Source of the DNA: Bacteroidales bacterium
GTDB taxonomy: Bacteria > Bacteroidota > Bacteroidia > Bacteroidales > P3
Direction of reading: 5' to 3'
Assembly (NCBI GenBank): GCA_024400545.1
Contig: JAKSMO010000005.1
Location: 1-58,950, forward strand
DNA length: 58,950 nt
The translations under genes were made by a program, and so were the position numbers. How positions within the stretch are numbered: position 1 is the first letter of the stretch; the number at the start of each line of letters is the position of its first letter. The notes under the pieces are model-generated. The model ran no database searches. It saw only the letters and a program-made list of their open reading frames with translations, and was not told the DNA's origin. Positions 57,488 through 58,950 of the stretch are shown here, piece after piece.

Positions 57488-58672
57488 CTACTCCGAGGGG
57501 TCTGTGCTCTGTTCTTTTACGATAGCTTCTGCCATACTGTTTAGCGACACGCATTCTTCTCGGCTGCATCTGCCTTTGTTCTCTATCCGCGGCCAGTCGC
57601 TGGGCACCAGTAGCAGTACCTGCCCGTTGGCACAATAGTCATACAGTCCTCCGGGGCATTGCGCCAAATCCGAGAAACCATTGTCTTGCAGCTGTATGAT
57701 AGAATGGCCCTCGCGCAAACAGACATCCCGCACGGCAACCTCATGAGGGCTGACAAAAGGGCTCACCAAGGCGTAACCACGCCGAGCTTTGAGCACACAG
57801 TCGTTCTGATGCGCACGCCGAGCTTCTATGTCGTTGTCGCGCTCCCATTTGTAGCGGCAATGCACCTGCACGCGAGCAAGAGCCAGCAGGTTGACATTGC
57901 CGATGGCATCGAATGTTCGTCCGGCTATCACAATACCTCTGATAGGCAGCAGCCAGCAAGGCTTATGCGTACGCAACCATCTGTGCGACGGATTGTTATG
58001 GACATATTCTATCATGGCTTTCAATTGGCCTTTGCGCCGCAATCTGGTTTCGTCAAAATCCTCGGCAAAGAGGGCATGCTGCTCAATAATGCGAGGCGTA
58101 GCATTCTTTAAGAAAGAAGCTATACCGGACTGAGATTCAGCCTCCTCGTCCGATACATTAAGGCGGCAAATCTCTCCGTCCATCACCACAGCCGCCCCAT
58201 GGTCGCCACCCAATCCCAGATAGGTCCTCAGCGCTTTGTTGCAGCCTTGCTTAAAACCGCGGATTACAACACCCAGCTTCTGCGCCATGGGCTGCCTCAC
58301 AAACAGCACAAAATGAATATGTTCCGGCATCACGCAGGCTGCCAGTATCTGCACATCGTTGCCCTTCCTAGCCTCCTGGGCCGGTATTTCCTGGATCTTG
58401 CGTTGGATATCTCTGCCTAAGGGGGTGAACTCCACTTTTGCCGTCTCGGCCAACTGTCGTTCCGTCAGCGTTCTACCATCTGCCAAGGCATATCGGACCA
58501 CCCCGTCTGCTCCCACGACCTTGCTACGTTCGTTGTCACCTCCGCAATCCACCATCCGCCCCAGCACCTGACAGCGGTCACTCACCACCAAGGTGATATG
58601 GTAGATACACCGCTCTCTATAGTCATGCAGCGGATGATGCTTGCGATGGGTCGGTTTAGATGGATTGTTCAT
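57488..58672 (-). CDS. Y1/RAYT-type tyrosine transposase fused to a DprA/SLOG-like domain
   Basis: I start at the ATG at 58672 (MNNPSKPTHRKHHPLHDYRE), just inside the promoter; upstream in-frame codons run through it. The 394-residue protein begins with a Y1-transposase fold: IYHITLVV, the HUH motif as PEHIHFVLF (His118, His120) and the nucleophile helix MIEYVHNNPSHRWL (Tyr223), the RAYT variant of YVH-NP. RAYTs are usually 150-230 residues. Here a further 150 residues (about 245-390) follow: GIVIAGRTFDAIGNVNLL, ARRGYALVSPFVSPHEVAV, GHSIIQLQDNGF and DYCANGQVLLLVPSD resemble the DprA/SLOG Rossmann fold. It may bind and process single-stranded REP hairpins; a REP-like palindrome lies 249 bases upstream. 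Confidence 0.8.
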   Translation of the reverse strand: MNNPSKPTHRKHHPLHDYRERCIYHITLVVSDRCQVLGRMVDCGGDNERSKVVGADGVVRYALADGRTLTERQLAETAKVEFTPLGRDIQRKIQEIPAQEARKGNDVQILAACVMPEHIHFVLFVRQPMAQKLGVVIRGFKQGCNKALRTYLGLGGDHGAAVVMDGEICRLNVSDEEAESQSGIASFLKNATPRIIEQHALFAEDFDETRLRRKGQLKAMIEYVHNNPSHRWLRTHKPCWLLPIRGIVIAGRTFDAIGNVNLLALARVQVHCRYKWERDNDIEARRAHQNDCVLKARRGYALVSPFVSPHEVAVRDVCLREGHSIIQLQDNGFSDLAQCPGGLYDYCANGQVLLLVPSDWPRIENKGRCSREECVSLNSMAEAIVKEQSTDPSE

Positions 58673-58687
58673 GCGAGAATTGAAATG

Positions 58688-58695
58688 CAAAGATA
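58688..58695 (-). promoter_or_regulatory. Bacteroidota -7 box for the transposase-like gene (TATCTTTG)
   Basis: The minus strand reads TATCTTTG with 15 nt between the box and the chosen start codon. It confirms the ATG at 58672 over the longer frame. Confidence 0.65.
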
Positions 58696-58920
58696 CAAAA
58701 AAAATCTCAGGTAGACAGAAAAAAAGTAATAATAAAATATAACCAAATATGGAACAATAAAATATTAAAGTAGAAAAATTGGCGGTGAATTGCAAATCCG
58801 ACACAACGAAAGCTCTACCCGTCTGCGAGTCATCGTCCCCGTCCACCTCCAAGACCATCCCACGGTCGCCGCCCATCCCATAATCTCCTTACTATAGAAA
58901 TGCCAATCCGCCAACCCGTT

Positions 58921-58943
58921 GCATCGGATTTGCAATCCGATGC
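58921..58943. repeat. REP-like palindrome
   Basis: GCATCGGATT, a 3-nt TGC loop, then AATCCGATGC is a perfect 10-bp hairpin. A related half-site (TTGCAAATCCGA, 58790-58801) and a CAATCCGCCAACCC stretch lie on the transposase side. Such GCATCGGATT-type palindromes are multi-copy in Bacteroidota genomes as I remember them, and fit RAYT substrates. The window ends 7 bases later. Confidence 0.7.
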
Positions 58944-58950
58944 CTCTTAC

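Follow-up and report, generated by a model that had tools for sequence, protein, structure and literature searches.

What does the gene at one end of this contig encode, and is the palindrome upstream of it the DNA on which its product works? The window, by which we mean the whole stretch of 58,950 nt that was analysed, is one entire contig (G000:C51) from a gut-type bacterium whose genome totals 2.64 Mb over 105 contigs. The gene lies on its minus strand at 57488..58672, stop included, with an ATG at 58672, and encodes a protein of 394 aa (P0001). The original prediction saw in it a REP-associated tyrosine transposase (RAYT) with a DprA/SLOG-like C-terminal domain, standing beside a REP-like palindrome. 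By eye, we spotted a candidate -7 promoter box, TATCTTTG, at 58688..58695 on the same strand, read against TAnnTTTG, which we take to be the Bacteroidetes-type consensus. The protein has two paralogues within its own genome, 29–31% identical, and both have the same C-terminal part.

Relatives were collected by a pattern-based scan of one genome per species, covering 84,980 species, which yielded 73 related loci. Bacteroidales accounts for nearly all of them, and these named relatives suggest that the host belongs to this order as well; Lentisphaerota, Verrucomicrobia, and Clostridia contribute a few. We aligned the window protein with 64 of them, picked as complete. The loci omitted (L092, L097, and L103–L109) are truncated where a contig ends, or broken, or short, or distant (L105), and L104, L106, and L108 are short and lack the C-terminal domain. 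All 65 aligned proteins, having been chosen as complete, carry this domain, with at least 124 residues past position 237.

By profile and predicted structure, the product is of the RAYT type. Its N-terminal Y1 (HUH/Tyr) transposase core, residues 1–236 (57965..58672, minus strand), matches the RAYT profile NF047646 with E=1.4e-9 and 37.9 bits, under the cut-off of 80 bits, and scores 21.4 bits against Pfam, under the cut-off of 23 bits. The RAYT profile is matched at E≤0.001 by 64/65 aligned proteins. Pfam Y1_Tnp is matched by just 14, so that surveys based on Pfam may overlook much of the family. The two histidines and the tyrosine named at the outset, H118, H120, and Y223, are where they had been placed and are invariant in all 65 proteins: the HUH motif H118-I-H120 is encoded at 58313..58321 and the catalytic Tyr223 at 58004..58006, both on the minus strand. 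The tyrosine is followed by the equally invariant N227 and P228, giving the Y---NP motif of class 2 as described in the main-text parts of PMC6006769; M115, P116, and G258 are the other invariant residues of the alignment. At the position of the class-2 W motif the window protein has F (W in 31/65 and F in 33/65 of the family), followed by A, where 7/65 have Q.

The AlphaFold2 model of the full-length protein is confident (pLDDT 89.6, pTM 0.84). Foldseek matched it with ShosA first, then with the ISDra2/IS608 TnpA transposases, the REP transposase of E. coli (4er8), and DprA. A loop between HUH and Tyr, at about residues 156–175 (58148..58207, minus strand), is modelled with low confidence (pLDDT <50 at 158–164 and 169–174); many relatives have hairpins here and the window gene has none. 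With the window protein as query, PHROGs returned just a weak transposase match (E=0.044) and PADLOC none.

The last 150 residues are, judging from model and alignment, a DprA-type Rossmann domain (residues 244–387; 57512..57943, minus strand). Modelled alone, this domain has a pLDDT of 90.7 and a pTM of 0.86, and ranks 1–13 of its Foldseek matches in the PDB are all ShosA or DprA chains (E from 8e-5 to 0.09, query TM-scores 0.44–0.55), with ShosA (8zva) at the top as for the full-length model. The structural match to DprA on which the first interpretation depended is thus there. A profile of the domain has four DprA structures as its best matches in the PDB (E=0.006–0.035), the next being ribosomal protein S3 at 0.07. 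We also compared it by hhalign with sets of Bacteroidales DprA and of LOG proteins, in which 27 and 26 of 30 loci each had passed a motif filter, the DprA set counting 26 after trimming. The alignment with DprA is colinear; it scores 33.4 across 119 columns, or 32.4 across 120 when every column is used, with E=1e-4 to 3e-4 and a probability of 42–56%, or 17% with the untrimmed DprA set. As a raw match this is weak. In the controls, the best of 60 column shuffles scored 23.8 and the reversed profile 19.9; the Y1 half reached 22.9, with 26 columns aligned. LOG, the sole branch of SLOG that we compared, scored 18.0 and gave no family match; the domain resembles DprA more than it does LOG. The domain also gave no match in BFVD at E≤0.001, and we rejected a viral origin.

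Pfam's own DprA family, PF02481, matched 3/65 family domains (best E=0.023) and had no match in the window's domain at E≤1; for this reason we call the domain DprA-like and do not class it as DprA. Stand-alone proteins of about 150 aa bridge the two: they match the C-terminal profile with E down to 1.6e-14, in a small set, and the two that we checked also match PF02481 (E=4e-9 and 3e-6). Such mini-DprA proteins of Bacteroidota (L169, L170, L163) share with our domain a size of about 150–160 aa, a (C/A)SR motif, and an E and an RN that we aligned by eye; unlike the family studied here, they lack a Y1 domain. The host genome encodes an ordinary DprA as well.

We made some observations on other DprA-like proteins in passing. 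Stand-alone mini-DprA frames of 146–179 aa, close to the C-terminal domain, occur at L169, L170, L162, L163, L164, and L166, all in Bacteroidota. A 381-aa frame at L165:2024-3166 starts with a weak match to the mini-DprA profile and looks nuclease-like by eye in the remainder, and a protein of 675 aa (L172:106-2130) has two tandem DprA stretches (PF02481).

The strings that had suggested the fold—GRTFDAIGN, VSPFVSPHEV, NGF, and YCANGQVLLLVP—are all in the window protein. The GN motif, G258-N259 (57896..57901, minus strand; G in 65/65, N in 60/65), aligns with the G(N/D)..LL of DprA, as seen against the GNLDLL of S. pneumoniae DprA. In the profile alignment, VSPFVSPHE, residues 303–311 (57740..57766, minus strand), falls on the VSG-LA-xGID of DprA. 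Compared with DprA itself (PF02481; PDB 3uqz, 5mll, 4ljk), the domain is colinear and shares the motif GN..LL..P..V.(C/G)SR. It differs in ending after the helix aligned to RNRIIAG, in being joined to an HUH enzyme, and in lacking GID, which is not kept in the family and is replaced by SPxISxGE. DprA binds single-stranded DNA (ssDNA) and handles it during natural transformation, and the Arg of its (C/G)SR motif has a role in the protein. The residue aligned with this Arg (GSR/GTR) is R in 57/65 proteins and Tyr in the window protein. With GID lost and Arg changed to Tyr, the grip of the window protein on ssDNA may differ from that of DprA.

The same losses give some room to a reading in which the C-terminal part is a mere structural or dimerisation add-on that makes no contact with ssDNA. 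Against it stand E311 and N378, each kept in 64/65 proteins, and the selection on this part of the gene. In the closest 40 of 83 pairs, which overlap, dN/dS of the DprA part is 0.06–0.23 where computable, a level comparable with that of the first catalytic segment (0.05–0.22). By comparison, the values are 0–0.80 for the short second catalytic segment and 0.24–1.4 for the HUH–Tyr loop. Between the window gene and L037 or L038, its nearest relatives, dS is saturated. The DprA-type domain is conserved across the family and constrained in close pairs, and we hold the add-on reading to be unlikely.

We then asked how widespread and how old the fused form, hereafter Y1-DprA, may be. In a genus sample, 73 of 120 genomes match the family profile, about 50 with long matches, a few of these being partial. 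In an order sample of 295 genomes, 166 match it; most of the matches listed lie in the Y1 part only, and among those listed at least 12 are near full length. In a phylum sample of 296 genomes searched with the C-terminal profile, seven matched: the window's own genome with three genes and six others with one each, of which L173 resembles ordinary DprA and L174 something else. In-frame stops in the top genus matches raised the idea of recoding or decay, which we discarded for L131 and L121: read in frame, their stops turned out to be ordinary terminal ones.

In a tree of the catalytic core only, built with the C-terminal part removed, 66 of 67 fused proteins are on one side of a branch with 100/85 support and 17 of 18 short RAYTs are on the other (L206 and L209 gave no ORF, and L207 and L208 were not among the short RAYTs used). 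The exceptions are L190, a short protein nested among the fused ones, and L100, on a long branch; explaining the grouping takes a minimum of two changes. The topology fits one old fusion followed by a later loss, short of proof. Taken as a whole, the alignment and tree suggest that the fused form is an old and conserved family.

We then counted perfect in-gene hairpins (stem of at least 8, loop of 3–5) in 79 genes, L105 and the window gene included. They are present in 45/79 family genes versus 35/535 other ORFs of the same loci, and in 40/68 family genes after removal of near-copies; 34/79 have none, the window gene among them. Their position is biased: 40/56, over distinct genes and with one gene skipped, fall in the HUH–Tyr interval, against an expectation of 26%. 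Among the 75 genes with enough flank, window gene excluded, 6 have the same hairpin (stem of at least 7) on both flanks versus 0/404 controls, and 14 have a hairpin within 120 nt upstream versus 10/404; the both-flank signature is absent from 69/75. A GT[AG] lies no more than 1 nt from the stem in 43/99 family hairpins versus 17/98 (p=9e-5), and the strict foot GT[AG][GA] shows no enrichment (9/99 versus 5/98, p=0.41). These hairpin and flank counts, like the genome counts below, are raw and include the shared ancestry of genes and genomes. The family as a whole is tied to REP-type hairpins, and to that extent the association proposed between enzyme and hairpins is borne out.

One class of hairpin, the GTTGC type, is present three times or more in 8 of the 19 genus genomes that have top-scoring members versus 5 of 101 others, with cut-offs that were set after viewing the lists; 6 of the 19 have none. 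Genome G299 has 26 of them, five at its Y1-DprA gene (locus L149), and the window's genome lacks the type altogether. No hairpin stands within 500 nt of the genes at L037 and L038. Among the short RAYTs L190–L205, 9/16 have in-gene hairpins. Two observations concern the coding side of such repeats: the HUH–Tyr loop of L037 and L038 is a tandem amino-acid repeat (SAPAN...TGPRAI) and not a hairpin, and L203, a short RAYT of G375, has a near-identical hairpin near the start, middle, and end of the gene and on both flanks, which encodes a repeated peptide.

The palindrome beside the window gene is a different matter. It is indeed there, as a 23-bp palindrome, GCATCGGATT-TGC-AATCCGATGC, at 58921..58943, 249 nt upstream of the ATG, together with the half-site, a truncated copy on the minus strand at 58786..58800 (CGGATTTGCAATTCA, two mismatches to the core). 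None of 100 shuffles of the window produced the palindrome at up to three mismatches. It is no single-copy sequence: the genome contains three exact copies of the 23-mer and one with a single mismatch, and 14 copies of its perfect 15-nt core versus none of a reversed control pattern. In the 12 stretches that we read, the copies are mostly between unrelated ORFs and frequently form inverted pairs or arrays. Some lie over mechanically called ORFs of 90–254 aa (L177, L179, L183, L184). The contig ends 7 nt beyond the palindrome, at 58950, which is what a repeat that interrupted the assembly would produce. G299 has the CGGATT palindrome as 92 perfect cores, some of them arrayed at a spacing of about 60–75 nt (e.g., L182, L183, L184).

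One could take this palindrome for the true REP of the window gene, and the upstream pair at 58786–58943 for its REPIN, given a perfect and a truncated copy within 275 nt upstream and a repeat that is dispersed and frequently in inverted pairs. The neighbourhoods of other family genes speak against it. The palindrome is missing around L037 and L038 and, at up to two mismatches, from the flanks of 13 other Y1-DprA genes in this genome or the genus, read over about 0.7–3.2 kb on each side; these genes belong to other subfamilies. There is no copy downstream of the window gene. Nor does the number of copies go with the family: it runs from 0 to 92 over 37 genomes of the genus and shows no relation to whether Y1-DprA is present (one-sided p=0.57, with a list of genomes having Y1-DprA that was read by hand from the genus matches and includes a few partial ones). 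G322 has 23 copies and is not among the 73 genus genomes that match the family profile. The foot of the palindrome, read by eye, is GTTG rather than GT[AG]. The palindrome is therefore not supported as the partner of the window gene, and we consider the REPIN reading quite improbable; the end of the contig at this point, and a comparison limited to two close relatives, leave it some probability. The palindrome at 58921..58943 is probably a separate dispersed REP-like repeat.

We favour, at a probability of about 60%, the view that Y1-DprA is a RAYT hairpin nicking and joining domain fused for good with a minimal domain of the DprA type, and that it acts on REP hairpins. By analogy with TnpA-REP of E. 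coli, the Y1 domain would cut and rejoin REP hairpins on ssDNA. By analogy with DprA, the second domain would provide a grip on ssDNA, keeping the enzyme attached to the strand that flanks the hairpin or is its target, and it might also serve in dimerisation or in contact with RecA. The family member in the window is probably stable and kept by its host, and the repeat upstream of it a separate element.

The resemblance to ShosA suggests another function. ShosA is one half of the ShosTA defence pair and has a role in defence. If the DprA-type domain were a sensor or antitoxin-like module of this kind, the protein would act in phage defence or stress response and not in mobilising REPs. ShosA is the top structural match of the Y1-DprA models, and one of the 65 members matches PsyrA in PADLOC (E=6e-4). 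However, the other 64 have no PADLOC match at E≤0.01, no toxin-like partner was noticed among the listed ORFs that neighbour the window gene, and the enrichment of hairpins in the family points to REP processing; the defence reading thus seems a poor prospect. That Y1-DprA is an ordinary IS200/IS605-type insertion sequence with subterminal hairpins is very improbable: the Y1 fold and the 6/75 genes flanked on both sides by hairpins that are identical or nearly so are outweighed by the low identity of the copies in the window's genome (29–31%), by L037 and L038 being about 92% identical over gene and flanks, a sign that the gene has not moved between the two, and by the IS200 profile NF033573 matching 3/65 proteins versus 64/65 for the RAYT profile.

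How does Y1-DprA, read as a RAYT joined to a DprA-type domain, compare with described enzymes? With RAYT/TnpA-REP (E. coli, PDB 4er8; NF047646) it shares HUH with a single Tyr, the class-2 NP motif, REP-type hairpins near part of its genes, and a mode of existence as low-identity paralogues rather than IS copies. It differs by the extra domain of 150 residues and, for the window protein, by scores under the NF047646 and Pfam cut-offs. The TnpAY1 proteins of subclass 2.4, as described by Quentin et al. 2018 (main-text parts of PMC6006769), are found in Bacteroidetes and have hairpins within the gene between HUH and Tyr that keep the frame; their median length is 194 aa, with a WQ motif and without a C-terminal extension. 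The family shares the position of these hairpins (40/56), absent from the window gene; in contrast, the window protein has F-A in place of W-Q, and we do not class Y1-DprA as 2.4. According to the same parts of that paper, subclasses 2.1 and 2.3 have large C-terminal domains, as does Y1-DprA, but the domains described there—DnaA_C/HTH-like in 2.1.2, subclass-specific in 2.1.1 and 2.3—are not of the DprA type, and no REPs were found alongside them. The fused architecture is absent from the 12-subclass scheme as given in the main-text parts of PMC6006769. Among open-licence PMC papers we found no description of a RAYT paired with a DprA, SLOG, or Rossmann domain. The RAYT variant with a DprA-type domain is real and, as far as the literature searched extends, undescribed.

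The existence of a RAYT branch with a DprA-type domain suggests a concrete partner activity, either ssDNA binding or RecA loading. In a bolder version, which we regard as rather unlikely, Y1-DprA would be a one-piece ssDNA-editing machine: the HUH domain would excise or join REP hairpins, and the DprA-type domain would pass the freed strand to RecA, or block other users of ssDNA. The REPs of Bacteroidales would then spread via recombination and not via replication-coupled transposition, and the enzyme's own in-gene REPs would be tolerated. Y1-DprA bears on how REPs spread and on why cells keep RAYTs.
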